Assembly (NCBI RefSeq): GCF_006715785.1
Contig: NZ_VFNX01000001.1
Span: 4,382,001 to 4,446,000, forward strand
Direction: 5' to 3'
Origin: Streptomyces puniciscabiei
GTDB lineage: Bacteria > Actinomycetota > Actinomycetes > Streptomycetales > Streptomycetaceae
DNA: 64,000 nt
Each line of letters starts with the position of its first letter. The stretch's first letter is position 1. A model generated the notes under the pieces. That model was not told where the DNA came from and did not search any database. It saw only the letters and a program-made list of their open reading frames with translations. Positions 14,506 to 59,936 of the stretch are shown here, in pieces. The position numbers and the translations under genes are program-made.

Positions 14506-14565
14506 AATCATCCGGAGGATCGAGCGTTTGGCCAACCGCCGAGCTGCGGCTATATTCCGGCCGCG
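14506..14565. promoter_or_regulatory. Conserved regulatory block, copy A
   Basis: On the plus strand TTGGCC (14528-14533) is followed after exactly 17 bases by TATATT (14551-14556), a good -35/-10 pair. The spacer holds GCCGAGCTGCGGC, a palindrome-like motif. In the opposite direction the self-complementary TTGGCCAA gives a second -35 with GATGAT 17 bases on. The same block recurs at 34680-34742 and 55395-55456. Here no complete gene lies directly downstream in either direction, so this copy may be a remnant. Confidence 0.6.
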
Positions 14566-25139: not shown

Positions 25140-26948
25140 TTACGCGGTGATGCCGAAGTCGTCCTGCTTCGGTGCGGGTGCGGCCTTGGCGACGGCCCGG
25201 GCGGTGATGGCCTTGGAGGCGCGGCCGGAGGCGGCGGACAGTTCGTCGGCGCCGGGTTCGAGGTACCAGGGGCGCAGGTCGAGCATGGCGGCGCGCATGC
25301 CGGTGGCGAAGCACAGCGCGGTGCCCTTGGGCAGGGCGCGGATGGCGTCGGCCGGCATGATCCGTTCCTGGCGCATGCTGACGCTGGTGGAGGTGCCGGA
25401 GTCCGAGGTGGAGGTGGACTTGGTCTCCACGTCGTGGTCACCGATCAGCCGGGAGAGCTTGTCGGCGAAGTCAGGGTCGTCGATGCCGGAGCCGATGACC
25501 TTGATGGTGGAGGCGGACCACATGGCGTCCATGCCAGCATCCCCCCAGACCTTCTGGCCCTGGCGGTAGGACTGCAGGATGGTGATCGGGATGATGCCGC
25601 GGGATCCGAGGTGGGAGTACAGGTCCGGCAGGTCCGAGATCTTGCACACGTTGGCGGCCTCGTCGAGGATCGCGAGCATCGGCGGGTCGAGACGTCCGCC
25701 GGCGCGTTCGGCCTGAGCGGTCGCGGCCCGCATCACCGAGTCCGCGCATGCCGCGATCAGCGCGCTCGCGCCACCACCGCCGTCCTTCGACAGCAGGTAG
25801 AGGGTGTCGCGGGACGTGACGAACTCGGACGGCCGGAACTCGGGCACGTCCTTCTGCGGGGTGACCCAGGCGGCGATCTCGGAGTTCAGGAGCGCGGCGG
25901 CGTACTGGCGGGCGGTCTCAAAGATGCCGTCGCGGGTCTCGGGCGGGCCTTCGACCGTGCCCTTGAGCTGTGCGGCGACGGCGGTGAACTGGTGGTCGCG
26001 CAGGATGTCCAGCGGCGTGCGGTCGGCGGGGAAGGCCAGCCACTGCATGACATCGGTGATCGGCCGTTCGTCCAGGGCCGCGGCCAGGAACAGTTGGGAG
26101 AGGATGTTGGATCCGGCCTTGGACCAGAAGTCTCCCTGCTGGGAGGCGTCGACGGAGGCGGCGAGGAAGTGCCCGGCGAGCCGGCCGGCGCCTTCGAGGG
26201 TCTTGGCGTCAGCAAGCGGGTTCCACCACATCTCCCGCTTCGCGTGGGCGATTTGCTGCGGGTCCATCGACCAGGTCCGGCCGACCTTGGCTCGCGCTTC
26301 GAGGGTGGCGGTGTAAGCGTCGCCGGCGGCCTTGTTGGAGGTCAGCAGGACCGGGCCGGGGGCACCCAGGATGGAGGGGATGGCCAGGCTGGTGGTCTTG
26401 CCGGAACGGGGCGCCATGATGGCGACCGCTACGTCCTCGTAGCCCATGCGGACTTCGCGGCGGGTGCCCTGGATGTTGCCGAGCAGGATGCCGGTGTCGG
26501 CCGCCTGGATGGTCTTGGCGTCCTTCAGGCTCGGGCGCAGGGAGCGGGCCTTGGCGGTGATGGCTTTGGCGAGCAGGGGCTCGATGTCCTTGGGCTTCGC
26601 CATCCCGGCGACCTTCTTCTTCCGCCCGCCGCTGCCGCCGTGGTGCTGTGACCAGAGCACGGCGCCGACGACGCCCAGGGCGATCAGGACCGCGCCGGGG
26701 ACGATGCGTGCACCGACCAGCAGCGCCGTATCCCCCAGGTGGGGCCAGAGACGGTTGGGGTGGAGGAGGGCTTCGACGGGCTGGTACGGGGCCCAGGGGC
26801 CGGAGTCGGTGAGCCATGCGGTGGTGTTGCCGCCGAGCCAGGCGAGGTTGGCGAGCGGGACGGCGATGGCCATGGCGCCGAGCAGGACGCGGAAGGCTAT
26901 GTCGTAGCCGTCGGTGCTGCTGCCGGAGGGGGCGGGGGTGTTGGGCAA
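25140..26948 (-). CDS. VirD4/TraG-type conjugative coupling ATPase
   Basis: A 602-residue protein with two N-terminal membrane segments (about residues 18-40 and 74-100). The cytoplasmic ATPase follows: Walker A APRSGKTTS (179-187), Walker B PMLAILDEAANV, and typical coupling-protein segments (FWSKAGSNILSQLFLAAALD, LQSYRQGQKVWG). It would link the relaxosome to a type IV secretion channel during conjugation. The start TTG 26946-26948 is the most upstream candidate in the frame and has no strong ribosome site. Together with the VirB4-like, SCO6880 and TrbL-like genes it defines a single-stranded-DNA-type transfer system, unlike the TraB/FtsK system of small streptomycete plasmids. Confidence 0.85.
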   Translation of the reverse strand: MPNTPAPSGSSTDGYDIAFRVLLGAMAIAVPLANLAWLGGNTTAWLTDSGPWAPYQPVEALLHPNRLWPHLGDTALLVGARIVPGAVLIALGVVGAVLWSQHHGGSGGRKKKVAGMAKPKDIEPLLAKAITAKARSLRPSLKDAKTIQAADTGILLGNIQGTRREVRMGYEDVAVAIMAPRSGKTTSLAIPSILGAPGPVLLTSNKAAGDAYTATLEARAKVGRTWSMDPQQIAHAKREMWWNPLADAKTLEGAGRLAGHFLAASVDASQQGDFWSKAGSNILSQLFLAAALDERPITDVMQWLAFPADRTPLDILRDHQFTAVAAQLKGTVEGPPETRDGIFETARQYAAALLNSEIAAWVTPQKDVPEFRPSEFVTSRDTLYLLSKDGGGGASALIAACADSVMRAATAQAERAGGRLDPPMLAILDEAANVCKISDLPDLYSHLGSRGIIPITILQSYRQGQKVWGDAGMDAMWSASTIKVIGSGIDDPDFADKLSRLIGDHDVETKSTSTSDSGTSTSVSMRQERIMPADAIRALPKGTALCFATGMRAAMLDLRPWYLEPGADELSAASGRASKAITARAVAKAAPAPKQDDFGITA

Positions 26949-32577: not shown

Positions 32578-33417
32578 CTACGGTGATCGTCGTGCGGTGG
32601 CCCGGGCAGCGGCCGGTGCCGGAGTGGCAGTGCGCGGGCGGGGCGCGGTGGTGAGGTGGGCGGCCGTGGCGTCGAGGTCCTGCTGGATGCCGTGGAGGCG
32701 GTAGGCGATCAGCTCCAGGCGGTGGGCCGCGTCGGCTCCGGCGCCGCCGGGGTGGCGGGCGATGCGGTGGGCGGTGTGTTCGACCAGGCCCCGTACGGCG
32801 GCCAGCGGGCCGGAATGCTCATCGGCGAGCTGGGTGAGGACTTCCGCGAGCTGGGCCGAGGCCGTCGGCACCGATCGGGCCTGGGGTGCGGGAGCGATCA
32901 GGTGCAGGTCCTGCTCGATGCGGCGAGCCTCGTGCGCGAGACGTCGCCCAAGGTCAGCGGGCTGCTGCTGCCAAGAGCCGTCGAGCCTGATCAGGTTGGC
33001 GATCACATCGAGGCGCCCGGGTTTGCCCTGCACCGCGATCCAGTGGCAGCCGCCTGTGTCGCCGGGCCTCTCGACGCCGGCGGCACGGGCCAGACGGCGG
33101 GCGGCCTCGGCCCACTCCGCAGCGGCCAGGTCACGGTCGTCGGGATGGAGCCGCACAACGAGGTGGAAGATCGCCCGCCGGTCCCCGCGCGGGCTGGTGG
33201 CGAACGGGTGCTCCAGCAGCGGGTCTTCGAGATGCTCGGCCCACTGGGCCGCAGTCCACGTCGCCTGCTCGTCCTCCAGGGTGTAGGAGTCCAGGCCCGG
33301 CCAGTAAGCGACGACGGAGTGCTCCGGCAGACCCCCCTCGATCGGCACATCCCGTCCCAACGCCTCACTGAGCGGATCGTGCGGGGCGTTGGTCCGCTCG
33401 TTGACGCGTGGGATCAC
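32578..33417 (-). CDS. Relaxase-like protein lacking the HxH motif
   Basis: A 279-residue protein from a GTG that overlaps the upstream stop (GTGA). Its start MIPRVNERT and its middle (HLVVRLHPDDRDLAAAEWAE, GCHWIAVQGKPGRLDVIAN, LIRLDGSW) follow the layout of actinobacterial MobA/VirD2-type relaxases, which read MIP..., a H..-R--PED---T--QW segment, and WVAVRH--DHVHI-AT---DG. Where those enzymes carry the metal-binding HxH, this one has GRLDV. It is therefore probably not a nicking enzyme but a DNA-binding or relaxosome accessory homologue. The comparison is from memory of the family. Confidence 0.55.
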   Translation of the reverse strand: MIPRVNERTNAPHDPLSEALGRDVPIEGGLPEHSVVAYWPGLDSYTLEDEQATWTAAQWAEHLEDPLLEHPFATSPRGDRRAIFHLVVRLHPDDRDLAAAEWAEAARRLARAAGVERPGDTGGCHWIAVQGKPGRLDVIANLIRLDGSWQQQPADLGRRLAHEARRIEQDLHLIAPAPQARSVPTASAQLAEVLTQLADEHSGPLAAVRGLVEHTAHRIARHPGGAGADAAHRLELIAYRLHGIQQDLDATAAHLTTAPRPRTATPAPAAARATARRSP

Positions 33418-34679: not shown

Positions 34680-34742
34680 AACAATCGTCCGGAGAATCGA
34701 GCGGTTGGCCAACCGCCGATCGTCGGGTATGGTCCGTCGCCG
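34680..34742. promoter_or_regulatory. Conserved regulatory block, copy B
   Basis: TTGGCC (34705-34710) plus 17 bases plus TATGGT (34728-34733) on the plus strand, with GCCGATCGTCGGG between them. On the minus strand TTGGCC is followed 17 bases on by GACGAT, pointing at the gene 34205-34642. It sits in the 100-base gap between the end of the 34743-35240 gene and the start of the 34205-34642 gene. Confidence 0.65.
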
Positions 34743-42613: not shown

Positions 42614-43455
42614 GGCAGGTCACGCTCCTGCCAGACCTGGTCCATCTCGGCCAGCGCCGTCATGGCGTGCGCGATGGTCTCACGGGTGATTGGCGCGCCG
42701 CTGGCGAACGCAGGGTCGTACCGGCTGAACGTCCGGGTACCGCGGGCCTGGGCGAGCGGCGGGACCACCTCGTCCAGCAGCCTGGTGGCCACGCGGCGCT
42801 GGCGCTTGTCCTCCACAACGCGCTCGGTGCGCTCCGCCCATGCGCCGGCGAGCGTCAGGTGGCCCTCGACGACCCGGTCGGCCAGCTCGGGGTCCTCTTC
42901 CCGCAGTCGGGCGAGCTGCACCTCGGCGGAGTTGGCCTTGGCCTTGTTCTCCCGAGCGATGGCATACGCCTCGTCCAGGCCCATGGCGCCGCTGATGACC
43001 GCCTCCACGAGGTCCGCGGCGTGCTGGAGCACCACGTTGGCCTGGCTGATCCGTCCCAGGGAGAGGCCGGTCTGCTCAGAAACTGAACGTGTGGAGTGCT
43101 CAGAGTCTGAGCACGGCTGGTGTTCAGATTCTGAACGGGCCTTGGCGGAGATCATCGCCGCCTGCCCCTTGGTGATGTTGCGGCGACGGAGGTTCACCGA
43201 AAGGACGTAGCCGCGGGGGTCGTTTCCCTCGTAGGTCGTGAACCTTGGTTCCACGGCGGCGATTTCGCATGCAGCGAGCCTGCCGCGTCCGTCGAGGAGA
43301 CGACCCTGGGGGTCGAGAACAAGGGGATGCAGCAAGCCGCGTTCTTGGATGTCGTCGGCGAGAGCACGCAGCTCGTCCTCGTCGAGCTGGGGAAAGAGTT
43401 CGGTGATGGGATGGGTTTCTATTGCGGGCTCCTGATGGGTAAAGGGAGGCTTCAA
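42610..43455 (-). CDS. ParB/Srx-fold DNA-binding protein
   Basis: A 281-residue protein with a ParB-type N-terminal domain (ELFPQLDEDELRALADDIQE, LDPQGRLLDGRGRLAACEIA, GYVLSVNLRRRNITKGQAAM) and a helix-turn-helix-like part (VSEQTGLSLGRISQANVVLQ, GAMGLDEAYAIARENKAKAN). ParB-like proteins bind centromere-like sites for plasmid segregation or act as regulators. TTG 43453-43455 overlaps the upstream stop (TTGA) and is taken as the start, though ATA eleven codons later has a better-placed CAGGAG. Its coding DNA holds a triple palindromic repeat at 43074-43136. Confidence 0.75.
   Translation of the reverse strand: MKPPFTHQEPAIETHPITELFPQLDEDELRALADDIQERGLLHPLVLDPQGRLLDGRGRLAACEIAAVEPRFTTYEGNDPRGYVLSVNLRRRNITKGQAAMISAKARSESEHQPCSDSEHSTRSVSEQTGLSLGRISQANVVLQHAADLVEAVISGAMGLDEAYAIARENKAKANSAEVQLARLREEDPELADRVVEGHLTLAGAWAERTERVVEDKRQRRVATRLLDEVVPPLAQARGTRTFSRYDPAFASGAPITRETIAHAMTALAEMDQVWQERDLP
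43074..43136. repeat. Three 24-bp-spaced palindromes inside parB-like gene
   Basis: Sites at 43074-43088, 43098-43112 and 43122-43136 fit G(C/T)TCAGANNCTGA(A/G)C. They are 24 bases apart and each is near-palindromic; site 2 extends to a 19-base palindrome. They encode an 8-residue repeat (SESEHQPC, SDSEHSTR, SVSEQTGL). Such regular palindromic spacing is typical of protein-binding iterons or operator arrays. Confidence 0.7.
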
Positions 43456-44966
43456 TGCATCCGTGCGTCGGTGTCGAACAGCGATCGCTCGTGGGGATGC
43501 AAAAGATGTTGAACGATGAATGATCTTCCGGCGACCTTCCACAGTCCGCGGCCCCTGTTGAGGTGGGCGATGGCATCGGTCTCTACGGAGGTCAGGCCCA
43601 AGAGCGCGGCTGCTGCGTGGAGTTGGTCGGTTTCCTGCCGGTAGATGATGCGGGTGGAGCAGTCGGCCAGGAGGCCCTCGGCCAGGGCGCGTCCGCGGGA
43701 TCCGGCGTCGCCGGCGGTGAGCAGGTCGGACAGGCGGTGGATGACCATCAGGTTCGCGATGCCCAGGCCACGGCTCAGCTTCCACTGGGACTGCATGCGC
43801 TGCAGCAGGCCGGGGTGGCGCATCAGGCGCCAGGCTTCGTCGTAGACGATCCACCGTCTGCCGCCGCGGGGGTCGGTGAGGGCGGATTCCATCCAGGCGG
43901 AGGCGCAGGTCATGGCGAGAACGAGGGCGGTGTCGTCGCCGGAGCCGCCCAGGCGGGACAGGTCGATGGTGAGCATCGGGCTGTTGGGGTCGAACGCCAC
44001 GGTGCTGGGCGCGTCGAACATGCCGGCGAGGTCGCCGTGGACCATGCGGCGCAGGGCGTGAGCGAGGTCGCGAGCGGCATCTCCCAGGTGCCCGGACATG
44101 CTGCCGCCGGCGGTGTCGAGGGCGGCGGGGTTGTTGAGGGTGGCGGCGATGTCGCCGAGCAGCGGGGTGCGGCCGGTGGCGGCGGCGTGGGTGACGACGG
44201 CGTCGAGGGCGACGTCGAGCGCGGTGTGCTCCATCGGCATCAGGTCCCGTCCGAGCACGGTACGGGCCAAGGAGCCGAGCAGCAGCAGGCGGCGCTTGCG
44301 GATCTCGCCCGCCCAGTCCGTCTCGGAGACGCTGTGGGGGCGGGGGGCGGCGTCCAGGGGGTTGAGCTTGCCGGGCAGGCCGGGCCCGAGGGCGATGGAG
44401 GTGCCGCCGAGCGCGGTCGCCACCGGGGTCCATTCGCCCTTCGGGTCGCAGGGGACGTAGACGCGGTATCCGAAGGCGACCGACCGCAGGGCGAAGGACT
44501 TCGCGAGCGCGGACTTGCCCTGCCCGATGACGCCGGCGAGCAGGACGTTGGGATTGGTGAAGCCCTCGACCTTGCCGTACAGGGCGAAGGGGTCGAAGCA
44601 GAAGGAGGCTTCGGCGTGGACGTCGCGGCCGATGTAGATGCCCTCGGCGCCGAGTCCGCCTTCGGCGAGGAAGGGGTATGCGCCGGAGGCGGTGGCGGTG
44701 GTCATGCGGTGGGCGGGCAGCCGCAGCTTGTTGCCGCGGGCGGAGGCCGGCCCGGGGCGCCCGGCAACGGGGTAGACCGGGGCGGGGCTTTCCTGCTCGG
44801 CGGGTTCCTGGCCGGCCGGGTGGGCGGCGGCCTGGGCGCGGGCCTTGGCTTCGGCTTCGGCGAGCTGGCGACGGGCGGCCTTGCGGGCGGCGCGGTCGGT
44901 GCCGTGCGGGGTGAACAGGGGGGAGGCCGAGGCGCGGCGGGCGCGGCGGGCGGGCCGGTGGTTCAT
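43452..44966 (-). CDS. VirB4-like conjugative ATPase
   Basis: A 504-residue protein from ATG 44964-44966. A basic, Ala-rich N-terminal arm leads to a RecA-like ATPase: Walker A GVIGQGKSALAKS, Walker B RWIVYDEAWRLM, and sensor segments MLTIDLSRLGGSGDD and IYRQETDQLHAAAALLGLT. It fits the VirB4/TraC-type motor that energises type IV secretion. It lacks the long N-terminal domain of full-length VirB4, which the upstream SCO6880-type protein may supply (split architecture; inference). It overlaps the ParB-like gene. Confidence 0.8.
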   Translation of the reverse strand: MNHRPARRARRASASPLFTPHGTDRAARKAARRQLAEAEAKARAQAAAHPAGQEPAEQESPAPVYPVAGRPGPASARGNKLRLPAHRMTTATASGAYPFLAEGGLGAEGIYIGRDVHAEASFCFDPFALYGKVEGFTNPNVLLAGVIGQGKSALAKSFALRSVAFGYRVYVPCDPKGEWTPVATALGGTSIALGPGLPGKLNPLDAAPRPHSVSETDWAGEIRKRRLLLLGSLARTVLGRDLMPMEHTALDVALDAVVTHAAATGRTPLLGDIAATLNNPAALDTAGGSMSGHLGDAARDLAHALRRMVHGDLAGMFDAPSTVAFDPNSPMLTIDLSRLGGSGDDTALVLAMTCASAWMESALTDPRGGRRWIVYDEAWRLMRHPGLLQRMQSQWKLSRGLGIANLMVIHRLSDLLTAGDAGSRGRALAEGLLADCSTRIIYRQETDQLHAAAALLGLTSVETDAIAHLNRGRGLWKVAGRSFIVQHLLHPHERSLFDTDARMH

Positions 44967-44994
44967 CGGGGGCGCTCGATTCGGCGGGTGGTGC

Positions 44995-45450
44995 TCATCG
45001 CGCGCACGAGGTGGTGTGCGGTGCGCGGTGCAGGTCGGTGGGGGTGGTCTTGCGGCGGACGATGTGCCCGGCGGCGAGATGGCGCTGGCAGATGGTGAGG
45101 AAGGGAGGCCCTTCGGAAAGCTGCTCCGGGCGGCACTCGGCGGGGTCCGTGGACGCGGCCGGCAGAAGGTGGAAGGCCGCGTGGATGTCGGTGGTGGCCT
45201 GCCACAGCCCGGTGCGTGCTGCGGCAAGGTGCCGGCCGGCTGCGGGATGCGGGGGCCGTGCCGCCTCGGCCAGCTGGTCGAGGAGCCGGTGCAGTTCTGT
45301 GAGGTGGGCGTGGAGGGTGTCGAGGTGCGTCCGGTCCGGCGGATGCGCAGGCTCGGGGCGGCTGAGGGCGCGGGTGTGATGGCGGATGCCCGCGGTGGCA
45401 GCACGCAGGTAGGGGTGCGAGTCGGGCTCGCTGGGACGGATCTGGGTCAA
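44995..45450 (-). CDS. Hypothetical helical protein (151 aa)
   Basis: TTG 45448-45450 overlaps the upstream stop (TTGA). It is His/Leu-rich and helical (LDTLHAHLTELHRLLDQLAE, AAGRHLAAARTGLWQATTDI). A possible leucine-zipper spacing exists, but no named motif. Function is unknown; it lies between the SCO6880 and VirB4-like genes. Confidence 0.55.
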   Translation of the reverse strand: MTQIRPSEPDSHPYLRAATAGIRHHTRALSRPEPAHPPDRTHLDTLHAHLTELHRLLDQLAEAARPPHPAAGRHLAAARTGLWQATTDIHAAFHLLPAASTDPAECRPEQLSEGPPFLTICQRHLAAGHIVRRKTTPTDLHRAPHTTSCAR

Positions 45451-46077: not shown

Positions 46078-47550
46078 TTAGAGGGTGGTGCGGGCGAGGG
46101 GGAGTGCCGCGGCGGCGAAGGCATCGGGCTGCTGGAAGTTCAGACGCCGCAGGTCGACCTGGGCGGTGACGGCGGCGGTCTCGATCTGGGCGCAGGCCGC
46201 GTCGAGCAGGGCGTCGGTCTCGGCGGAGACGGTGAGCAGGCCGGTCAGGGCGACGTCGGCGTGGCCGGCGATGAGCTGGCGTTCACGGGTCTTGACGTCG
46301 GCGTATTCGATGGAGTCGGCTTCGTTGTCGACCTGGCCGCGGCGGGCGCGTTCGTTGGCGTCGGCGATGATGGCGGCCTTCTTGCGCTGCACGTCGCGCA
46401 GCGCCGACTCGAGCCCCTGGGGGACGTAGATGAGGGACAGGCTGCGGCGGACGCCGGCGGTGAACATCAGCCCGTGCAGGAAGCCGGGGCTGGTTTCGGT
46501 GCGGGGCCAGTTCTCGATCCAGTAGGTGGCGTGCCGGGCGGTGTCCGTGATCACCCGGTCGTACTCCTCGACCTGGACGACGGGGCCGGCGGCGGCCGGG
46601 TCGGCCTCGGCCCGGCCGGATTCCGACCACTGCTGCAGGCTGGAGAGTGCTTTCGGGTCGTAGGCGGTGCGGACGACCGCGGCGACCTCCCGCGCGGTGA
46701 GCCAGCCGGTGACCATCAGTCCGGCGCTGCGGGCGGCCTGCGCGACGGAGGCGGTGGTCTGCTCCATCACCGTGAACGCGCCGGGCAGTCCGCCGCCGGC
46801 CTGGCTGATGAGCCGCTTGGCGGCCTTCATGTCCAACGAGATGGCCAGGTATGCCTCGTGCGGGGCGGCGGCCGGCCCTGCGGAGGCGACGAGTTCGGAG
46901 TAGACCTGTCCGGCCACGGGGGTTTCGGGGCGGCCCTGCTGGGCCCAGTGCCGGGCGAGGGTGTCGCCGGAGTCGGGCACGGTGCGCTCCAGGACCTGCA
47001 CGGTGGCCACATGCCCGGTGCGGGCAATGCCCGCGAGCGCGCGGCCCCAGCCGTTGACGTTGTGGTTCTGGGTGGCGGGGTCCAGCAGGGCGAAGGCGCG
47101 GGAGGAGACGCGGGCGACGGCGGTGAGGGTCTGGCGGTGCGGGTCGTGCACCGCGGCGGCCCCGCCTGCCGAATCGCCGGGGGTGACCACGCGCAGGGAG
47201 GCGGTGGTGCCGGGCAGGTGGAGCAGGCCGTCCTGCCTCGGGCGGGAGACCGGCCGGGCAAGCCACAGTCTCTGGCCGGTGCGCCGGCGGTGGGCGTAGC
47301 GGGCGACGATCGGGGCCCAGTCGATCAGGGAGCGGCCGTGGCGGCGGATCGCGACCAGGGCGGCGACCGCCGCCCACAGCGGAGTCAGGGCGATGGCGCC
47401 GACCAGGCCGGTGCTCATCACCGTCACCAGCAACAGCGCCAACGCGCTGGACACCAGCGTGAGCTGGGGCAGGGACAAGCCCAGAAGGATGCCGCGCCGG
47501 GATCGGTGGGGGAATTTGACCGTGAGGGGGACAACGGAGAGATCAGACAT
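46078..47550 (-). CDS. SCO6880-family type IV secretion protein
   Basis: A 491-residue protein from ATG 47548-47550. The start MSDLSVVPLTVKFPHRSRRG and the two-helix membrane hairpin that follows (LTLVSSALALLLVTVMSTGL, WAAVAALVAIRR) match the SCO6880 family, a fixed partner of actinomycete VirB4 and TrbL-like genes. The remaining soluble region (QTLTAVARVSSRAFALLDPA, SELVASAG, YLAISLDMKAAKRLISQAGG) corresponds to the N-terminal part of VirB4-type proteins. It likely anchors the ATPase to the membrane channel. Confidence 0.75.
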   Translation of the reverse strand: MSDLSVVPLTVKFPHRSRRGILLGLSLPQLTLVSSALALLLVTVMSTGLVGAIALTPLWAAVAALVAIRRHGRSLIDWAPIVARYAHRRRTGQRLWLARPVSRPRQDGLLHLPGTTASLRVVTPGDSAGGAAAVHDPHRQTLTAVARVSSRAFALLDPATQNHNVNGWGRALAGIARTGHVATVQVLERTVPDSGDTLARHWAQQGRPETPVAGQVYSELVASAGPAAAPHEAYLAISLDMKAAKRLISQAGGGLPGAFTVMEQTTASVAQAARSAGLMVTGWLTAREVAAVVRTAYDPKALSSLQQWSESGRAEADPAAAGPVVQVEEYDRVITDTARHATYWIENWPRTETSPGFLHGLMFTAGVRRSLSLIYVPQGLESALRDVQRKKAAIIADANERARRGQVDNEADSIEYADVKTRERQLIAGHADVALTGLLTVSAETDALLDAACAQIETAAVTAQVDLRRLNFQQPDAFAAAALPLARTTL

Positions 47551-47576
47551 GAGTGCTGTTCCGGGAGGAGGCGCGC

Positions 47577-47613
47577 GGGGCGGGACGCACCGGATGGTGG
47601 TGCGTCCCGCCCC
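47577..47613 (-). terminator. Strong 15-bp hairpin after the TrbL-like gene
   Basis: Perfect 15-bp stem (47577-47591 with 47599-47613) and 7-base loop, located 21 bases past the TrbL-like stop and before the SCO6880 start. It may end or attenuate transcription within the transfer operon. Confidence 0.75.
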
Positions 47614-47633
47614 CGGCCTCAACGGGCGAAGGG

Positions 47634-49004
47634 TCAGATGCCGGTGGGCGGCGGAGACGGCGGTGCTGCGGGCCCGGTGGCCGAACCGCCCTGGGCCGGA
47701 GCCGGCGGTGCGCCTTGCGGCGGGGGCGTGCCCACGCCGGTCGGCGGAACCGACATGAATCCGCCGCCCTGGCCGGACGGTGATCCCGGGCCGCCGGAGC
47801 CGGGGCTGCCGCCGACCTGGCCGCTGGTGTCATCGCTCGGCCGCATCGGCGGGGGCTGGACGGCCTTCTCCAGACCGTTCTTGACCCCCTCGCCGCCAGA
47901 GGACTCGCCCGAGCTGCTGCTGGACTTGCTGCTGTCCTGACCGGGGCCCTTGCTGGTGGGGGCGATGTCGCCGGGGAAGCCGCCGGGCACCGCGTCGGGG
48001 CCCTGCGGGGCGGCGCCTGCTCCGGCTGCCGCGCCGCCGGTTCCGGCGGTGGCTGCTGCCGCTGCGGCCTTGCGTCCGGCGCGTTCGGCGTGCTGGCGGG
48101 CCATCTGGGCGCCGGCGCCGCCGGCACGGTGGATGTCCTCGCCGTTGGTGCCCTCAGAGGCCCAGTGCACGAACTTGAACGTCGCGTACGGGCACAACAG
48201 GATCAAGACCATGATCACGATGCCGGACATGACGTCCGCGAGCGCGGCTAGGCCGTCCTTGGAGTCCGTTTTACCCATGGCGGTGATGCCGAGCACGAAG
48301 ATGATCGTCATCAGCAGTTTGCTGATCACCAGGGTGGCGGTGGCCTCGATCCAGCCCCTGCGCCACCGGCGGGCGACCTCCCAGCCGCCACCGGCGCCGG
48401 CGAACACGGCGAGGGTGACCAGGACGAGGATGCCGACCTTGCGGACCATCATCACGCACCAGTACAAGAACGCACCCACTGCGGCGCCGAGTCCGGCGAA
48501 GACCGCGACCAGCCAGCCCAGTCCGGACAGGGCACCGATCTGGCTGACCAGGACGATGCGGCGCACAGCGGATTCGATGGACAGGTGCGCGGAGGAGAAC
48601 AGGCCGTCGGAGAGCGCGTCGACCACTTCGATGGCGACGGTGGTGCCTGCGATGGCACAGAAGGCGAACAGGACGCCGGACATGGTGCCGGTGAATGCCT
48701 GGGTGAGGGCTTGTCCGTCACGCCTGACGGCGGCTCTGATGAGCTGGGCGCAGAAGGTGCCGACCAGGATGATCAGGCCGATCGGCAGCAACATTTCGTA
48801 GTTGTCGCGGAACCAGGCGGCGTTCAGGTCCACCTTGGTGGTGGCGTTGACGGCCTTGGCGGCCAGGTCGGCTGCGGCGGCGGCGAGTTCACCGGCGCTC
48901 TTGGCCATCCAGTTGCCGATTGCCTTGCCGGGGTCGGAGGCGAAGTCGACCGCGTCGCCGACGGCGCACAGTTTGTCCGCGAGGGGGAGGTCGCAGAAGC
49001 CCAA
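47634..49004 (-). CDS. TrbL/VirB6-like polytopic conjugation protein
   Basis: A 456-residue membrane protein from TTG 49002-49004. It has a periplasmic-type N-terminal part (FCDLPLADKLCAVGDAVDFA, with two Cys) and about six to seven hydrophobic segments between residues 70 and 290 (PIGLIILVGTFCAQLI, MSGVLFAFCAIAGTTVAIEV, GWLVAVFAGLGAAVGAFL, LVLVTLAVFAGAG, LMTIIFVLGITAMG, IVIMVLILLCPYATF). A long Pro/Gly/Ser-rich cytoplasmic tail follows. It matches the SCO6881-type TrbL/VirB6 family, forming the inner-membrane platform of the DNA-transfer channel. The ribosome site is GGAGG eleven bases upstream. Confidence 0.8.
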   Translation of the reverse strand: MGFCDLPLADKLCAVGDAVDFASDPGKAIGNWMAKSAGELAAAAADLAAKAVNATTKVDLNAAWFRDNYEMLLPIGLIILVGTFCAQLIRAAVRRDGQALTQAFTGTMSGVLFAFCAIAGTTVAIEVVDALSDGLFSSAHLSIESAVRRIVLVSQIGALSGLGWLVAVFAGLGAAVGAFLYWCVMMVRKVGILVLVTLAVFAGAGGGWEVARRWRRGWIEATATLVISKLLMTIIFVLGITAMGKTDSKDGLAALADVMSGIVIMVLILLCPYATFKFVHWASEGTNGEDIHRAGGAGAQMARQHAERAGRKAAAAAATAGTGGAAAGAGAAPQGPDAVPGGFPGDIAPTSKGPGQDSSKSSSSSGESSGGEGVKNGLEKAVQPPPMRPSDDTSGQVGGSPGSGGPGSPSGQGGGFMSVPPTGVGTPPPQGAPPAPAQGGSATGPAAPPSPPPTGI

Positions 49005-49729: not shown

Positions 49730-50038
49730 TTAGTGGACCTGCGATCCCAGGGCGGAGAAGAAGGCGACGATGCCGTTGGCGGCGCCCAGGCCCAGGGCGG
49801 CGCCGGCGGCGACGACGGCGCCCTTCTTGCCGTTGGCTTCGGCCTGGTGGCCGCCGGTGTGGTGGCCCCAGGCCCACACACCCAGGGAGACGGCCAGGGC
49901 GCCGACCACGGCCACGATGCCGAAGAGGTTGATGCTGCTGACGACGTCCTTCAGGACGGACAGGCCCGGCAGGCCGCCTTCCTTGGGGCTGACGCCAGGG
50001 TCGAAAGCGAGAGAGACAGCACGGTCTGCGAAGGACAT
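49730..50038 (-). CDS. Small two-helix membrane protein (DUF6112/VirB2-like)
   Basis: A 102-residue protein from ATG 50036-50038 with two hydrophobic helices (NLFGIVAVVGALAVSLGVWA; GAVVAAGAALGLGAANGIVA) around a basic loop. Size, topology and place right after the cell-wall hydrolase and before the VirB8-like gene match the DUF6112 pilin-like family of actinomycete transfer systems. It is probably a channel subunit. Confidence 0.7.
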   Translation of the reverse strand: MSFADRAVSLAFDPGVSPKEGGLPGLSVLKDVVSSINLFGIVAVVGALAVSLGVWAWGHHTGGHQAEANGKKGAVVAAGAALGLGAANGIVAFFSALGSQVH

Positions 50039-50180: not shown

Positions 50181-51311
50181 TCAGGAGACGATGCGGCGGG
50201 CGGCCAGGACGTCCCAGTCCGCGAGCGGAGTGATCCGGACGGGCTTGGAGGTCCGCGGCGCCTCGATGACGAGCCCCGCGCCGATGTACATGCCGACGTG
50301 TTCGGGCACGGCCGCGGTCCCCCGGGTGAACAGCAGGTCGCCCGGCTTCAGTTCCGACGGCGAAACGGCCTTGCCTTCCTTGACCTGTGTGTACGTGGTG
50401 CGGCTGAGCTGGACGCCGGCGTGGGCGTACGCCTGCTGCATCAGGGAGCTGCAGTCGCAGCGGCCCATCGGGTCGGGGCCGTGCGGGTTGGTGCAGTCAC
50501 CGCCCCACTGGTACAGGGTGCCGAGCTGGTGCATGGCCCAGTCGATGGCGGTGCGGGCCTTCGGCGGGGCGTCCTTGGGGATGGTGTAGCCCTTGGGCAC
50601 GGAGCCCTCGGGGATGGTGCCCCACTGGGAACCGTCCTGGCCCGGGGTGCAGCCGGTGGAAGCCGTCTGCGCGGTGCTGGTCGTGTTCTTGGTCGTGTTG
50701 GATTTGCCCTTGCCCGGCAGGGTTTTGACGGTGGCTTTCTGCAGGGCCCGGGCGAGCGGCTCCCACTGCGCGTACGCATCAGGAAGACCGGACGCCTGGA
50801 CGGCCTGGGCGGCCTGGGTGACGGTCATCTGCTGCCAGCCGTGGACCTCAAGCAGCGCCTTGTAGAACTTGGTTGAGGCGTAGACGGGGTCGCGGATCTG
50901 CTCGGGTGTGCCCCAGCCCTGGCTGGGCCGCTGCTGGAACAGGCCGAGCGAGTCGCGGTCGCCGTAGTTGAGGTTGCGCAGGCGGGATTCCTGCATGGCG
51001 GTGGCAAGCGCGATGACCTGGCCCTGGGCGGGCACGCCGAGCGAGATGCCGGTGGCGACGATGGTCTTGGCGTTGGGGATCTGCTCGTTGGGCAGCTCCA
51101 GGCCCTCGACGTGGACGTCCTTGGCGGAGCCCTTGCCGCCGAGGATGGCCGCCACCTGTTTGGCGACGGCGGCGGTGTCGATGGATGTGCCGGTGCTGTT
51201 GCAGGAGGCGGTCTGGCCGGCGTCGCTTGCCGCCGCGGCCATGGCGGCGGTGCCGGCGAGAAGGAACGGGGAGAGGACGACGACGCCGATGCCGGCGGCG
51301 AGCGCCTTCAA
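50181..51311 (-). CDS. Secreted NlpC/P60 peptidoglycan hydrolase with transglycosylase-like domain
   Basis: A 376-residue exported protein: signal peptide (residues 1-28), a lytic-transglycosylase-like domain (IALATAMQESRLRNLNYGDR, SLGLFQQRPSQGWGTPEQI), a Thr/Ser linker, and a C-terminal NlpC/P60 domain with catalytic Cys in GRCDCSSLMQQAYA and His in VPEHVGMYIG. It would cut cell wall to let the conjugation channel pass. TTG 51309-51311 overlaps the stop of a 20-codon leader (TTGA). It is the first large gene of the leftward array. Confidence 0.85.
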   Translation of the reverse strand: MKALAAGIGVVVLSPFLLAGTAAMAAAASDAGQTASCNSTGTSIDTAAVAKQVAAILGGKGSAKDVHVEGLELPNEQIPNAKTIVATGISLGVPAQGQVIALATAMQESRLRNLNYGDRDSLGLFQQRPSQGWGTPEQIRDPVYASTKFYKALLEVHGWQQMTVTQAAQAVQASGLPDAYAQWEPLARALQKATVKTLPGKGKSNTTKNTTSTAQTASTGCTPGQDGSQWGTIPEGSVPKGYTIPKDAPPKARTAIDWAMHQLGTLYQWGGDCTNPHGPDPMGRCDCSSLMQQAYAHAGVQLSRTTYTQVKEGKAVSPSELKPGDLLFTRGTAAVPEHVGMYIGAGLVIEAPRTSKPVRITPLADWDVLAARRIVS

Positions 51312-51370
51312 CCGCGGCAGCCCGGCCGCAGGTCAGCGTTTTCGGGCAGGGGCGGGTGGCGAGAGGTCAT
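51308..51370 (-). CDS. 20-residue leader peptide coupled to the NlpC/P60 gene
   Basis: ATG 51368-51370 with GAAGGA seven bases upstream encodes MTSRHPPLPENADLRPGCRG. Its TGA overlaps the TTG of the NlpC/P60 gene (TTGA), while the TTG itself lacks its own ribosome site. Translation of the hydrolase would thus depend on this leader. Confidence 0.5.
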   Translation of the reverse strand: MTSRHPPLPENADLRPGCRG

Positions 51371-51593: not shown

Positions 51594-51700
51594 AACACTA
51601 GGCCCAGATTGGCGGTCGACCAAAAAGTGGGCGTGAGGGGTCGGAATTCGACCCCTCACGCTCGCACTTCTTGGTCGGCGGCCGATTCGCCTCTACAGTT
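51594..51700. promoter_or_regulatory. Divergent promoter pair around a long palindrome
   Basis: Rightward: TTGGTC (51671-51676), 17 bases, TACAGT (51694-51699). Leftward: TTGGTC (complement of 51618-51623), 17 bases, TAGTGT (complement of 51595-51600). Between them is a perfect 13-bp inverted repeat (51631-51643 with 51649-51661, loop GAATT), extended by weaker pairing to both -35 boxes. This would drive the transfer array leftward and the methyltransferase array rightward, with the palindrome as a shared operator. Confidence 0.75.
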
Positions 51701-51834
51701 TTGGGACTCCCCTCGCCCTCCCCGGTGTGTGGCCCTGGGCTTCTTCATGCCCACGTTCTTTCGGCCCACCGGCTTCTCACGTGCGCGACGGGTTATTCAT
51801 CTCGGCCTGTTCCCACCCGAATCGGGGTTTCTCT

Positions 51835-52590
51835 TTGCCTTTTTCCCTGCACCAGGGCGATGCCCTCAGCGTCCTTGCCGGTCTGCCGGACGACTGCGTC
51901 GATTCCGTGATCACCGACCCGCCCTACAACTCGGGCGGGCGCACGGCGAAGGAGCGCACCTCGCGCAGCGCGAAGCAGAAGTACACCTCTGCCGACGCCA
52001 AGCACACCCTGCCTGACTTCACCGGCGAGAACATGGACCAGCGCTCTTACGGGTTCTGGCTCACCCAGATCATGACCGAAGCACACCGGCTCACGAAGAC
52101 CGGGGGCACCGCGCTGCTGTTCACCGACTGGCGCCAGCTGCCGGTCACCACCGACGCGATCCAGGCGGCTGGCTGGCTGTGGCGGGGCGTGCTGGCCTGG
52201 CACAAGCCCCAGGCGCGGCCCCAGAAGGGCCGCTTCACCCAGAACTGCGAGTTCATTGTCTGGGCGTCGAAGGGCGCGATCGACGGCTCGGCCAATCCCG
52301 TCTATCTGCCCGGCCTGTACTCCGCCTCGCAGCCGTCAGGCGCCCAGCGCCAGCACATCACCCAGAAGCCGGTCGAGGTGATGCGCGAGCTGGTCAAGAT
52401 CGCACCGCCTGGCGGCACGGTGCTCGATTTCTGCGCCGGTTCCGGCTCCACCGGCGTCGCCGCTCTGCTGGAGGGGCGGGACTTCATCGGCGTGGAGAAG
52501 ACCAAGCACTACGCCTCGATCGCGGCCGACCGGCTCACGAAGACCGTCCGCGAGACCCTCACCCAGAACGATGTGGGCCTGACGGTCTGA
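51835..52590 (+). CDS. N4-cytosine/N6-adenine DNA methyltransferase
   Basis: About 251 residues with catalytic motif IV DPPYNSGG (28-35) and SAM-binding motif I VLDFCAGSGSTGVA plus RDFIGVE near the C-terminus, in the order of beta-class enzymes. It would methylate an exocyclic amino group in a specific DNA site. It is the first gene of the rightward array, 136 bases after the promoter -10. TTG 51835-51837 fits the family start (SLHQGDALSVLAGLPDD); GTG codons at 51781 or 51727 are alternatives. No restriction enzyme is nearby. Confidence 0.85.
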   Translation: MPFSLHQGDALSVLAGLPDDCVDSVITDPPYNSGGRTAKERTSRSAKQKYTSADAKHTLPDFTGENMDQRSYGFWLTQIMTEAHRLTKTGGTALLFTDWRQLPVTTDAIQAAGWLWRGVLAWHKPQARPQKGRFTQNCEFIVWASKGAIDGSANPVYLPGLYSASQPSGAQRQHITQKPVEVMRELVKIAPPGGTVLDFCAGSGSTGVAALLEGRDFIGVEKTKHYASIAADRLTKTVRETLTQNDVGLTV

Positions 52591-52744: not shown

Positions 52745-53404
52745 TTGCCTGAATCCGTAGAACCGCCAGCCGAGGCAGAGATGGATCCGGTTCGCGTGCC
52801 GGACGCTCACCTTGAGGGAATCGAGGCGAGCGTGCGCCGGCTGATGGAACAGTCGGCGCAGCAGGCCCGGCAGCTCGACCACCTCGCCTCCGCGCCGCCC
52901 CCCGGTCCCTCGCCATTCGCCGCGTTCGGCATGCCGGGGCTCGGCGGCCCGCCCCCGGCGGCAGCGCCACCGGAGCCGCGTCCGATCCTGGAGCTGGAGG
53001 GCGAGGAGTACGAGGACGAACTCGACGCACTGTCCGACTGGGTCGACGACTTCCTCCTGCCGGTCTACGGCGCGGAGGTCACCACGGCTGCGCCGTGGTG
53101 TCTGCAGTGGCAGGAGCACGACGACGTCGTGGCCTGGCTCCACGCCCTGTGGCTGGCCTACCAGCAGCACAAGGACGCCGAAGCGGGCCTCAGCGGCCTG
53201 TTCGTGTGGCACCGGGACTTCCTCACCCACGCCGTCGCGGCGATCCGCGCGCCCGGCGGGCCGCTGTCGGCCTGCATGACCTCTCCGGACCGCCCCGCGC
53301 ACCGGCTGCTGCCCGGCCCGCCGCCCTCGGCCCGCACCGAGAAGGCGAACGCGGCCGAGTCGGCCTCGTCCGGTCCTGGTACGGCTGGCGAGCCGGCGTC
53401 ATGA
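52745..53404 (+). CDS. DUF4913 protein (219 aa)
   Basis: TTG 52745 with AGGAGG nine bases upstream. The central domain (LSDWVDDFLLPVYGAEVTTA, APWCLQWQEHDDVVAWLHAL, LFVWHRDFLTHAVAAI, GPLSACM) matches DUF4913, a domain common in actinomycete elements and of unknown function. An N-terminal helix precedes it and the tail is Ala/Ser-rich. It overlaps the RelE-like gene (ATGA). Confidence 0.75.
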   Translation: MPESVEPPAEAEMDPVRVPDAHLEGIEASVRRLMEQSAQQARQLDHLASAPPPGPSPFAAFGMPGLGGPPPAAAPPEPRPILELEGEEYEDELDALSDWVDDFLLPVYGAEVTTAAPWCLQWQEHDDVVAWLHALWLAYQQHKDAEAGLSGLFVWHRDFLTHAVAAIRAPGGPLSACMTSPDRPAHRLLPGPPPSARTEKANAAESASSGPGTAGEPAS

Positions 53405-55394: not shown

Positions 55395-55456
55395 CGGGGC
55401 GGCGGAATATAGCCGACGATCGGCGGTTGGCCAAAAGCACGTTTCTCCGGATTCTT
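55395..55456. promoter_or_regulatory. Conserved regulatory block, copy C
   Basis: Plus direction: TTGGCC (55427-55432), 17 bases, GATTCT (55450-55455), pointing at the SH3 gene. Minus direction: TTGGCC (55429-55434), 17 bases, TATATT (55406-55411). The palindrome GCCGACGATCGGC lies upstream of the plus promoter. Sequence identity to copies A and B is high over about 50 bases. Confidence 0.65.
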
Positions 55457-57373: not shown

Positions 57374-58225
57374 TTGTCCCTCACCGCTCTGCCCCCTGAC
57401 ACCGGCGCCGACATCGCCCGGGTCACCGAGGCACTCGCCATGATCACCCCGCGTTGGAACGTGCGGATCCTGCTGGCGCTGGCCGGTCGGCCGCTGCGCT
57501 ACAGCGAGATCGCGGGCAAGATCTCCTGGCTGCAGAACGGCCAGCTTCATCCGAAGCTGCGGACGTTGTGCGATGACGGCCTCGTTGAGCGCACCGAGCA
57601 CAGCCCACGGCACGTCACGTACGGCCACACCGATCGCGCAGCCGCGCTGCTGCCGGTTCTGCCGATGATCGCCACCTGGGCCGAGGAGCACCTGGAGCAG
57701 CCGGAGAAGCCGCTGTCGGCCATCGAGCAGATCGAGGACAGCCTCTCCCTCCTGACCCGCCGGCACGCCGCCGCGATCTTGTGGGTGCTCAAGTCCCGAG
57801 GCGAGGCCAGCGGCCGTTCCCTGGCCCGGATCGTCATGCCCGACAGCGACTGGACCAACATCTATCCCCCGCTGCGGCAGCTGGTTGCCGACGGCCTGGT
57901 CGATACCGATGGCATCGGTCAGCCCTACCGCTTGTCCGCGGCAGGGGAGGGCTTGGGGCCCGTGTTCGGGGCTTTGTCCGCGTGGTCGGCGGGAGAGTCC
58001 CTTGCGCAGGCCGCCCATCACCCGGTGTGGGGCCGAGCCGGCAATGCGCCGGCTCCGCGCACCTGGGTCAGCCACCCCTCCCGGCTGCCCGCCCCGCCGG
58101 CAGCGCCGGCGCCGGTCAGGACCGGCCCGCCCGCACCTCCGGCGTGGCAGCACCGTGCATTGTTCTCCCACGCCCCCGCCGCACGCCCGGCGACGGCCGT
58201 CCTGGCGGGAGGTCCGCGCCGATGA
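57374..58225 (+). CDS. HxlR-type regulator with two winged-helix domains (283 aa)
   Basis: TTG 57374 with AGGAG eight bases upstream. Residues about 20-105 form a HxlR winged helix (ITPRWNVRILLALAGRPLRY, LHPKLRTLCDDGLVERTEHS, VTYGHTDRAAALLPVLPMI). Residues about 120-205 form a second (LLTRRHAAAILWVLKSRGEA, YPPLRQLVADGLVDTDGIGQ). Tandem HxlR proteins are usual for streptomycete regulators. It probably controls the following transporter genes, coupled to the next gene by ATGA. Confidence 0.75.
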   Translation: MSLTALPPDTGADIARVTEALAMITPRWNVRILLALAGRPLRYSEIAGKISWLQNGQLHPKLRTLCDDGLVERTEHSPRHVTYGHTDRAAALLPVLPMIATWAEEHLEQPEKPLSAIEQIEDSLSLLTRRHAAAILWVLKSRGEASGRSLARIVMPDSDWTNIYPPLRQLVADGLVDTDGIGQPYRLSAAGEGLGPVFGALSAWSAGESLAQAAHHPVWGRAGNAPAPRTWVSHPSRLPAPPAAPAPVRTGPPAPPAWQHRALFSHAPAARPATAVLAGGPRR

Positions 58226-58707
58226 GCACCTCCTTCTCCACGGCTGATGTCCGGCGCTTCTGCGCGCAGTTGTCCTCGCCGGGCCTGGTCCGCCTGATCA
58301 CCGAGATCGACGACAACGGGCCCATCCCGCCGCGCGGACTGGCGCGCACCCTTGCCGATCTCACCGAGCACCATCTTCGGCAGGCCACCGACGTCGCCCG
58401 CGCCTTCGGCCTTGTCCGTATCCGGCCCGGCGCCGGGCTGGCCCTGACCACATCTGGCGCGGAGCTGGCCGACGTCTACGACGCGATCGCCCGCTGGGCC
58501 CGGCGCCACGCCTACCCGGAGCCGGTCGCGGACTTCACCGGCCGCATCCAGCACACCCTCGCCCTCCTGGCCGACACCCCGGCGGCCGACCACTTGCTCA
58601 GTGACCAGGCGCTTGCTGACCTTGCCGGGCCGCGCGACCTGCTGGGCCAGTGGCTGCACGACCACGCGCAGGCCGCCCGGCTCGCCGAGCACGAGCTTGC
58701 CGCGTGA
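58222..58707 (+). CDS. wHTH-like regulator (161 aa)
   Basis: ATG overlaps the upstream stop. The N-terminal 80 residues fit a winged-helix DNA-binding domain (GLVRLITEIDDNGPIPPRGL, LTEHHLRQATDVARAFGLVR, GAGLALTTSGAELADVYDAI); the rest is helical. It may act with the HxlR protein on the same operon. Its stop overlaps the MFS gene. Confidence 0.65.
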   Translation: MSTSFSTADVRRFCAQLSSPGLVRLITEIDDNGPIPPRGLARTLADLTEHHLRQATDVARAFGLVRIRPGAGLALTTSGAELADVYDAIARWARRHAYPEPVADFTGRIQHTLALLADTPAADHLLSDQALADLAGPRDLLGQWLHDHAQAARLAEHELAA

Positions 58708-59936
58708 GGGCGCGCACCGCCCCCCGGCACGCACGCCGCCCTTCCTTGCTGCGTGGCGTCTACCTGCCGCGCACGGCTGATGGTGCCGCGTTCGCGATGA
58801 CCACCTACGGCATCCCCCTGCTGGTGCTGGCCACCACCGGGTCGGCGGCGCTGACGGGCCTGGCGTTCACGCTGGAGTGGGTGCCCAGGCTCGCCGCGTT
58901 CACGGTGGCCGGCACGCTCGTCGACCGCCACGGAACCGGGCGCGTCTTCCGCGCCGCCTGCGTCATCCGCGCCCTGGTCGTCCTTGCCGCAGCCGTCGTC
59001 TTGACGGTGGCCGGCGCCGCGACGACGGCGGCGACGACCACGGTGATGGCGCTCTCCGCGGTGACGGGCGTTGCCACCGAGTTCAGTTACGTCGCGGCCG
59101 AGACCGCCGGCGGCCAGGCGAGCCGGGTGGCCCGTACCGGGGCGCACCGGGTGCAGTCCGTCCTGCTGGGGATCGACCAGAGCGCGATGCTCGCCGGGCC
59201 CCTGGTCTCCGGCCTGCTGCTGCAGCACGGCGGCCCGGCCGCGATGCTCACCACGCTCGCCGGCTTCTCCCTCCTGGCCGCCGTGCTCAGCCCCCGCGAA
59301 CGGGCCGTCCCGCGCGGCGACGCCACCAGGGAGCAGTCGGCGAGCGGGCTGCGGACGGGCTGGGCCACGCTGCGCTCGCTGCCCGCCCTTGCCTGGCTGG
59401 TCGGCGGCCTTCTCGTCTCCAACACGGCCGTGGCCCTGCTCCAGGCGGCCATGCCGGTGATCGTGGTCACCAAGCTGGGGCGCTCCAGCGCGGACGCCGG
59501 AGCGGTCTGGTCCGCGGCGGCTGTCGCCTCCCTGCTCGCCATCACCGCCGCACGGCGGGCGATCGACCGCTGGGGCCTGTGGCCGGTCGGCGCGGCATCC
59601 GCCGCCGTGGCCGCCGCAGCAACCCTCGCCCTCTCCCAGGCCGACACCTACCGCGCGTACCTGCTGCTGGTGGCCGCGCTGATGGCCGGCGAAGGGGGCC
59701 TGACGGTCGTCCTGCGCACCCTGCGCTCCCACCTCATTCCGCCCGAGGTGTTCGGCAGCACCCTGGCAGTGACGATCCTGCTGCTCCTGCTGCCCTTCCC
59801 CGCCGCTGGCCTGCTCGTCGCCGCCGTGCCGCCCGCCCAGCTCGGGCCCATCATCACCGCCGTCGCCCTCCTGCAGGCCCTCGGTCTGACGGCCGCCTTC
59901 GCCCGGCTGCGCAACCTGCCCGCACTTCCCGCCTGA
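58704..59936 (+). CDS. MFS transporter (410 aa)
   Basis: GTG overlaps the upstream stop (GTGA). About twelve hydrophobic segments are spread over the protein (AMTTYGIPLLVLATTGSAAL, VVLAAAVVLTVAGAATTAAT, GPLVSGLLLQ, LAWLVGGLLVSNTAVALLQA, VAVSILLLLLPFPAAGLLVA-like). The MFS loop-2 motif appears as AGTLVDRHGTGR. It likely exports a small molecule. Regulators just upstream suggest inducible efflux. Confidence 0.8.
   Translation: MRARTAPRHARRPSLLRGVYLPRTADGAAFAMTTYGIPLLVLATTGSAALTGLAFTLEWVPRLAAFTVAGTLVDRHGTGRVFRAACVIRALVVLAAAVVLTVAGAATTAATTTVMALSAVTGVATEFSYVAAETAGGQASRVARTGAHRVQSVLLGIDQSAMLAGPLVSGLLLQHGGPAAMLTTLAGFSLLAAVLSPRERAVPRGDATREQSASGLRTGWATLRSLPALAWLVGGLLVSNTAVALLQAAMPVIVVTKLGRSSADAGAVWSAAAVASLLAITAARRAIDRWGLWPVGAASAAVAAAATLALSQADTYRAYLLLVAALMAGEGGLTVVLRTLRSHLIPPEVFGSTLAVTILLLLLPFPAAGLLVAAVPPAQLGPIITAVALLQALGLTAAFARLRNLPALPA

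Follow-up and report, generated by a model that had tools for sequence, protein, structure and literature searches.

A conserved divergent promoter region of a Streptomyces integrative conjugative element family and its relation to likely satellite elements

Introduction

The mobilizable island SGI1 times its own excision and transfer by the master activator AcaCD of its helper, an IncC plasmid, according to the accessible parts of two reports (PMC5058578, PMC4605294). Judged from those parts, this is the nearest parallel to the locus described here, which lies in a 64-kb stretch of Streptomyces puniciscabiei DNA (the window, 64,000 nucleotides in all): here too, helper and satellite share control sequences. 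However, the hosts are Streptomyces, the site lies in the divergent promoter of an integrative conjugative element (ICE), the regulator is a candidate only, and helper and satellite often reside in separate genomes. The FtsK/TraB-type AICEs of the pSAM2 kind, whose repressor is KorSA, are likewise integrated conjugative elements of Streptomyces, but the transfer genes of the present element are of the type IV secretion system (T4SS) type.

The actinobacterial T4SS-type ICEs and the S. coelicolor cluster SCO6871-6884 have in common with this element an SCO6880/SCO6881-type cluster and VirB4- and VirD4-like proteins, as described in the available sections of PMC3218068 and PMC2782261. In S. coelicolor, SCO6878, SCO6880 and SCO6881 belong to a 14-gene cluster that those sections describe as probably co-transcribed (PMC2782261). 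In contrast to the locus presented here, no promoter, operator or satellite is named for such ICEs in the same sections (PMC3218068, PMC2782261), and the available portions of the literature on T4SS-type ICEs of Streptomyces state nothing about the control of their transfer genes. A protein of the pIJ101 stability region that reads a conserved short palindrome likewise belongs to a Streptomyces conjugative element; however, pIJ101 is a rolling-circle plasmid, and the likeness, taken from the accessible part of the report, is one of description (PMC4170104). The promoter and palindrome considered below are not mentioned in the accessible parts of PMC9513070, PMC10711302, PMC3218068, PMC2782261 and PMC11389934, and no report of a shared regulator or promoter of this kind in Streptomyces was found in the portions of the open-licence literature that could be consulted.

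The divergent promoter and its flanking genes

A preliminary description of this DNA proposed two outward promoters around a long palindrome. Read in both directions from position 51646, the two promoters of the form TTGGTC, 17 nt, TAnnnT are found directly in the sequence. The left promoter (51595..51623, minus strand) has its -35 box TTGGTC at 51618-51623 and, after 17 nt, its -10 box TAGTGT at 51595-51600, and is kept in 41 aligned rows; the right promoter (51671..51699, plus strand) has TTGGTC at 51671-51676 and, again after 17 nt, TACAGT at 51694-51699. Between them, as proposed, lies a perfect 13-nt inverted repeat around GAATT (51631..51661; arms 51631-51643 and 51649-51661, 5-nt spacer), with a conserved, covarying core at 51635-51657.

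The box pattern with TTTT behind it has two matches in the 64 kb at no more than one mismatch, both at the centre (0.00 expected from 100 shuffles), and the palindrome pattern has a single match in the window at up to three mismatches (0.00 expected from shuffles). This arrangement of boxes and palindrome is not produced by chance. The promoter region is unique in its own 9.15-Mb assembly at E <= 0.001, the second match being the other strand of the same place. The boxes appear promoter-like by consensus only, TTGGTC agreeing with the standard -35 box in nothing but TTG, and the transcription starts are presumed from them.

The left promoter would read into a T4SS operon, and the right one into an operon for a methyltransferase and for regulatory and maintenance functions. 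On the left, a 20-residue leader ORF (MTSRHPPLPENADLRPGCRG, MTSRYPPxPE...; 51308..51370, minus strand) ends in a TGA that overlaps the TTG start of the NlpC/P60 endopeptidase gene (50181..51311, minus strand; Pfam PF00877), the first large gene of the transfer operon. A leader ORF of such kind is present in 35 of 41 loci, and the overlap suggests translational coupling of the transfer operon. Further along the same strand are a DUF6112 protein (49730..50038), matched in 40 of 40 relatives, an SCO6881-family protein (47634..49004; NCBIfam NF047967, 591.7 bits, cut-off 325), an SCO6880-family protein of the T4SS ATPase region (46078..47622; NF042935, 426.9 bits, cut-off 60), a VirB4-like transfer ATPase (43452..45404; NF045971, E 3.1e-20, 72 bits, below the curated cut-off of 325), a candidate relaxase (32578..33417), and a TraG/VirD4-like coupling protein (25140..26948; PF12696 and PF02534, both above cut-off). 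The candidate relaxase has no Pfam hit of its own and is 35% identical over 141 residues to the PF03432 relaxase of a mobilizable element, L175, discussed below. As regards the marks of a T4SS-type ICE, VirB4-type and SCO6880/6881-type genes are present, the VirB4-like model scoring below its cut-off, and so is a coupling protein; among the ORFs scanned with Pfam there was no FtsK-type hit, and no integrase appeared among the ORFs scanned. One tRNA-Arg gene lies in the window, at 13228-13301. Away from the conjugation genes, a TIR / NB-ARC / TPR protein at 3396-6416 (minus strand) is a possible defence protein.

On the right, the N6/N4 DNA methyltransferase (51835..52590, plus strand; PF01555, E 1e-31), whose TTG start at 51835 is proposed from conservation, is followed by a DUF4913 protein (52745..53404, plus strand) found in a scan of the right-side ORFs, several proteins without a named family, an HxlR-type regulator, a small winged-helix-turn-helix (wHTH)-like protein, an MFS exporter and an ATP-grasp ligase. 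The methyltransferase leader (51800-51850, plus strand) has a conserved hairpin-like CCCGAATCGGGG stretch immediately 5' of the TTG start. The exporter and the ligase, encoded after the two regulators at 58650-61594 (plus strand), recur in 38 and 33 of 40 relatives, respectively, and are possibly concerned with small-molecule cargo or a small-molecule signal. The layout first proposed, with transfer genes to the left and an array of methyltransferases to the right, thus stands as a transfer operon on the left and a methyltransferase operon on the right; the array does not, as there is one methyltransferase among the right-side ORFs scanned, and a C5 methyltransferase is located on the left.

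Conservation in close relatives

Among 392 same-genus genomes, 103 have a match to a 111-bp query at E <= 0.1, and 43, its own genome included, have a near-full-length one (E <= 2e-10), at 45 places in all. The presence is patchy, and two genomes have two places each. There are 44 such places apart from the window, and 18-20 kb of sequence was fetched around 40 of them; these 40 relatives and the window form the aligned set (n = 41). Because the relatives were picked by promoter similarity, conservation of the promoter is partly by choice, whereas synteny is free of that bias: in 40 of 40, the NlpC and SCO6880 secretion genes lie to the left and point leftward, and the methyltransferase gene lies to the right and points rightward.

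Within the aligned rows, all 41 left promoters and 40 of the 41 right ones keep the spacing of 17 between the boxes. An exact TTGGTC is seen in 39 of the 41 left promoters (a 40th has an insertion in its row) and in 34 of the 41 right ones; the right -10 box is TACAGT in 39 of 41, and the left one TACTGT in 34 of 41. Ungapped pairwise identity is about 0.81-0.85 at the boxes versus 0.37-0.41 further out in the leaders, the latter values being lowered by indels, and parts of both leaders are also conserved once gaps are allowed. The divergent promoter is a real and conserved feature. Some loci vary: the gap from promoter to first gene on the left is longer in L039, L043 and L037 (a partial match), the right gap is longer in L055, where it is partly masked by N, and the sequence just behind the left -10 box of L043 is unlike all others.

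The left-promoter pattern in named genomes gave 64 stretches, which by their record titles comprise 63 from Streptomyces and one from Kitasatospora aureofaciens, and a covariance model at E <= 0.01 matched 41 of the 391 genomes searched within the order, the matches listed belonging to one of ten genera. The plasmid collection yielded no relative of the promoter, the one match being of 31 bases in Cupriavidus, and the phage collection yielded none.

Symmetry of the palindrome

The palindrome, whose absence from close relatives had been named beforehand as a test of the proposal, is present in them. Its length is another matter: the perfect 13-nt arms hold in the window, but conservation across relatives extends to only about 10 bp per arm. 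One outer pair of the window palindrome (columns 48 and 76) forms in only 4 of 36 rows with letters. Over 14 tested pairs in 39 distinct aligned rows, 33 double-changed cells were counted against 13.9 in shuffled rows and 6-11 with a slid partner, the shuffle controls ignoring the relatedness of the sequences. The covariation is carried by the eleven innermost pairs, while the outermost three seldom pair. In 40 of 41 rows the arms agree at no fewer than 7 of 10 positions, two kinds of half-site, GGTGCCGG and GGGGTCGG, are dominant, and two-fold symmetry extends over the whole stretch spanned by the boxes, 79.6% of cells pairing over 55 pairs.

Such covariation is as expected of a two-fold protein site on DNA, and the palindrome would be the site of a regulator acting in trans. 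An RNA hairpin was considered and rejected in favour of two-fold DNA symmetry, because the palindrome lies upstream of both promoters and is thus absent from their transcripts.

The sister clade

Eighteen more distant hits of the covariance model were also fetched. Seventeen of these have both arms of the element in the same arrangement, and L158 is without the right arm. The palindrome is recognizable at 8-10 of 10 positions in L171-L174 and as a decayed relative in L157 and L158. The other 12 (L159-L170) are without this palindrome, their best arms matching at 5-7 of 10 and being of other sequence, and yet the divergent arrangement is kept. Most of the 12 also lack TTGGTC but retain TAnnnT boxes and, on either side, an inverted AACCGGGGATC-like stretch. 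Because these 12 relatives keep the layout without the palindrome, the divergent layout is older or more constrained than the palindrome, and for the same reason a central palindromic switch cannot be general. Of the proposal that a single regulator at the centre switches both arrays, the conserved divergent promoter pair with its two-fold site therefore survives, and the palindromic switch as a general feature of the family does not, being absent in L159-L170.

Likely satellite elements with shared control sequences

A search of the own genome for the motif in the promoter spacer led to L175, a locus 1.6 Mb away that has genes for a NikA/MobC-like protein and for a MobA/VirD2-type relaxase. 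The L175 proteins compared with the window ORFs have no match except the relaxase. The L175 promoter, TTGGTCAACCGCCGATCGTGCCCTACCGTTTT, starts about 270 nt upstream of a replication-like gene, which is named from its reading and has no Pfam hit. At up to three mismatches, this promoter pattern occurs in 42 of 199 genomes, compared with none for the reversed control. Thirty promoter-pattern loci were fetched, of which 13 are ICEs and 17 have the replication-like gene of L175, and all 30 are an ICE or a satellite.

The replication-like gene taken alone is found at E <= 1e-30 in 65 of 199 genomes, and 30 of these loci were fetched. In 18 of the 19 closest relatives read, the left promoter precedes the gene, at 23-27 of 27 positions. 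In the nineteenth, L225, which is 71% identical in this gene, the promoter is not kept (18 of 27), and among 11 loci more distant than L225, one (L234) reaches 23 of 27. Each of the 18 loci that keep the promoter (L175 and L327-L343) gave a relaxase match and no T4SS match within the 16.6-19.5 kb read, and so did the L225 region (L344).

A second family was reached through the palindrome. The preliminary description had suggested a search for it in other streptomycete elements, and it was indeed found upstream of relaxase operons. With an A/T centre and one mismatch, it occurs in 80 of 295 genomes, versus 7 for the reversed control. From the palindrome matches listed, 15 regions not at ICE centres were picked by hand, so that the reading covered a minority of the 80 genomes. 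In eight of the 15, the palindrome is followed after 48-49 bp by a promoter, TTCGGCAACCGG..., and by a relaxase gene, with a MobC match in six of the eight. In L280, the palindrome stands ahead of a replication-like gene of the first family, a relaxase gene being present as well. L267 has two copies of the palindrome and no query matches; L269, L271 and L274 have no match to the queries, and theirs are probably chance palindromes.

The TTCGGC promoter pattern of this second family occurs in 28 of 295 genomes at 29 loci, namely 10 sister ICEs and 19 second-family satellites. In 16 of these 19 the palindrome lies at -67/-68, its arms agreeing at no fewer than 7 of 9 positions, and three have one arm changed. 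Satellites and sister ICEs have one and the same promoter consensus, and for 7 of 19 satellite promoters there is an identical one among 11 sister promoters. This closeness is partly built in, the groups having been gathered with promoter patterns; the comparison of the eight satellites found by palindrome with the sister ICEs found by the model is free of that bias. The left promoter of several sister ICEs that are without the palindrome is the promoter of satellites that have it. Overall, 26 of 26 satellites read at 15-20 kb (18 of the first and 8 of the second family) have a relaxase match, and the ICE T4SS queries have no match in them within the 15-20 kb read. At the level of sequence, a control sequence shared by helper and satellite is well supported, and it suggests that the satellites respond to the same control signal as the ICE transfer genes.

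These elements also bear on whether the palindrome is instead a DNA-processing site, that is, an origin or iteron for replication or transfer that the promoters merely flank. Rows of GGTGCCGGAAACCGGCA-type repeats would fit this: they are seen in L268 and at 9240-9375 of L270, where the row lies inside the apparent replication-like gene of a mobilizable element. However, a scan of the window and of the left halves of eight ICEs gave no cluster of identical palindromes apart from one low-complexity overlap, the scan being one for identical 7-nt arms within 400 bases, which diverged repeats could escape. The internal palindromic repeats in the replication-like regions of L175 (7943-8096), L280 (10345-10516) and L272 (10110-10184), which are possibly internal origins, differ from the promoter palindrome, and the sister clade lives without it. 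We consider a DNA-processing role very improbable.

Co-residence of satellites and ICEs

Of 18 genomes with second-family satellites, 7 also contain a main-clade ICE, against 2.2 expected (P 0.003, uncorrected for phylogeny), and none a sister ICE, against 0.9 expected. For first-family satellites there is no enrichment (3 of 24 versus 2.3 expected). The genome lists behind these counts are incomplete: sister ICEs are included as far as the promoter and model searches extended, and some satellite-like hits, for example in G012 and G117, are left out. Co-residence is weak, and the satellites often live without this ICE.

The latter fact would be accommodated by a host-encoded factor, a chromosomal regulator or sigma factor exploited by many mobile elements, for which no link between helper and satellite is needed; the lack of ICE resemblance among the L175 proteins compared, the relaxase excepted, fits such a factor too. 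However, six of the nine matches of the motif in the own genome (at up to one mismatch) lie in the window or in L175, and the loci fetched by promoter pattern are without exception an ICE or a satellite. A host factor seems to us unlikely, if worth keeping in view. The other three matches are a spacer-motif site of ambiguous context at G000:C1:4531277 (L176, about 9794) and two weak ones. Because the same sequences serve elements with different genes, their reader is most likely trans-acting, and L175 seems not to bring the regulator itself, since its compared proteins have no relative in the ICE except the relaxase. One trans-acting regulator whose site is shared by helper and satellite elements would be the simplest reading.

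Secondary sites and the position of the palindrome

The motif TTGGYCRACCGNCNAT-7-TA occurs five times in the window at up to two mismatches (0.03 expected), namely at the two central promoters and at three other sites: TTGGCCAACCGCCGAGCTGCGGCTA (14528..14552, plus strand), TTGGCCAACCGCCGATCGTCGGGTA (34705..34729, plus strand) and TTGGCCAACCGCCGATCGTCGGCTA (55410..55434, minus strand, antisense to the preceding gene). In the 58 relatives, covered for about 10 kb on each side, 44 matches lie outside the centre, and 44 of 44 are in the right arm on the minus strand; of these, 42, each in a different locus (39 of 40 close and 3 of 18 distant relatives), fall 3.0-4.6 kb from the centre. By GC phase, the gene adjoining this right-arm site has its coding sequence on the plus strand, and a promoter-like reading of the site would thus be antisense. 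In most relatives, but not in the window, the site forms an inverted repeat, TCGCCGGTT-N5-AACCGGCGA, over the -35 box. A longer form of the motif is found in 26 of 61 genomes and not in the reversed control. Of 59 listed secondary sites, 35 have an ICE promoter, a satellite promoter or the replication-like gene no more than 65 kb away, and 24 have none of these at that distance. The plasmid and phage collections gave one 34-base match to a secondary site, in a Streptomyces plasmid record. The half-site GGTCAACCGSCGAT in the spacer between the -35 and -10 boxes, which becomes a full inverted repeat at the secondary sites, is probably a second protein site.

The distance between palindrome and promoter differs among the elements. 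Its centre lies 58-60 bp from the presumed left start and 57-60 bp from the presumed right start in the 41 ICE sequences, and 93-94 bp from the presumed start in 16 second-family satellites; the gap between 57-60 and 93-94 bp amounts to about 3.2-3.4 turns and is no exact helical multiple. Activators usually act at such an upstream distance from the start point, and a site between -35 and -10 is the classical position of a repressor. Because its centre is 57-60 or 93-94 bp from the presumed starts, the palindrome is more likely an upstream activator site than a roadblock.

The half-sites inside the promoter spacers and the inverted repeats over the -35 box at the secondary sites of most relatives would instead suit a repressor operator, at which a dimer encoded by the ICE binds the palindrome and the spacer half-sites and silences both operons while the element is integrated, the satellites staying silent until the same signal relieves the repression. 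However, the palindrome is upstream of both -35 boxes, at an activator-type distance, and in the second-family satellites it lies some 33-37 bp further upstream still. Repression of this kind is in our judgement rather doubtful.

The candidate regulator

The preliminary description named an HxlR or a ParB-like protein as the possible regulator; the HxlR-type protein is real and conserved, and no ParB-like domain was found in the ORFs scanned with Pfam. This protein (57374..58225, plus strand; 283 residues) is a tandem winged-helix protein with a PF01638 match of 63.2 bits (cut-off 20.8, E 2e-17), and it is matched in 39 of 40 close and 15 of 18 distant relatives (54 of 58). A single-domain HxlR protein usually has about 110-130 residues; in view of its 283 residues and its second winged-helix-like unit, the present protein is called HxlR-type, not plain HxlR. 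The second domain has only a weak HTH_20 match, and a predicted model shows two winged-helix-like units at low confidence (pLDDT 52.5, pTM 0.49); the 11 PDB matches, of 107-168 residues, cover the first domain only. Among 8000 scored candidates, 351 are homologues at E <= 1e-10, and of the 120 listed, those with organism names are from Streptomyces or Streptoverticillium.

We take the HxlR-type protein as the leading candidate, its role being a guess that ties it to the palindrome by co-location. The window protein resembles those beside GGTGCC palindromes, while its own palindrome is GGGGTC. The idea that the recognition helix tracks the type of palindrome was rejected: the difference in the second domain of the sister clade goes with phylogeny, and the window does not conform to the pattern. 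The second, small wHTH-like protein (58219..58707, plus strand) is CggR_N-like below cut-off, many of its homologues are named 'regulator' or 'hypothetical protein' in their sources, and its profile gave E 0.28 and worse against iron-dependent repressors.

Concluding remarks

The region may be the central divergent control region of a family of Streptomyces ICEs, at which a regulator bound to the palindrome and acting in trans would switch the two ICE operons and the satellite operon together; we give this reading an even chance. A wider proposal is that Streptomyces harbours a helper-satellite network that has gone undescribed, with at least two mobilizable families, in which, upon arrival or induction of the ICE, its regulator, perhaps the tandem HxlR-type protein in the form of a single-chain pseudo-dimer, would rouse the satellites already resident. 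This we put forward tentatively, as a possibility with less in its favour.

A short sequence marks both the transfer operon of the helper and the replication and relaxase genes of its likely satellites, which gives a testable handle on who mobilizes whom. Streptomyces is the main antibiotic-producing genus, and the shared sequence can serve as a search key for more satellites in it.
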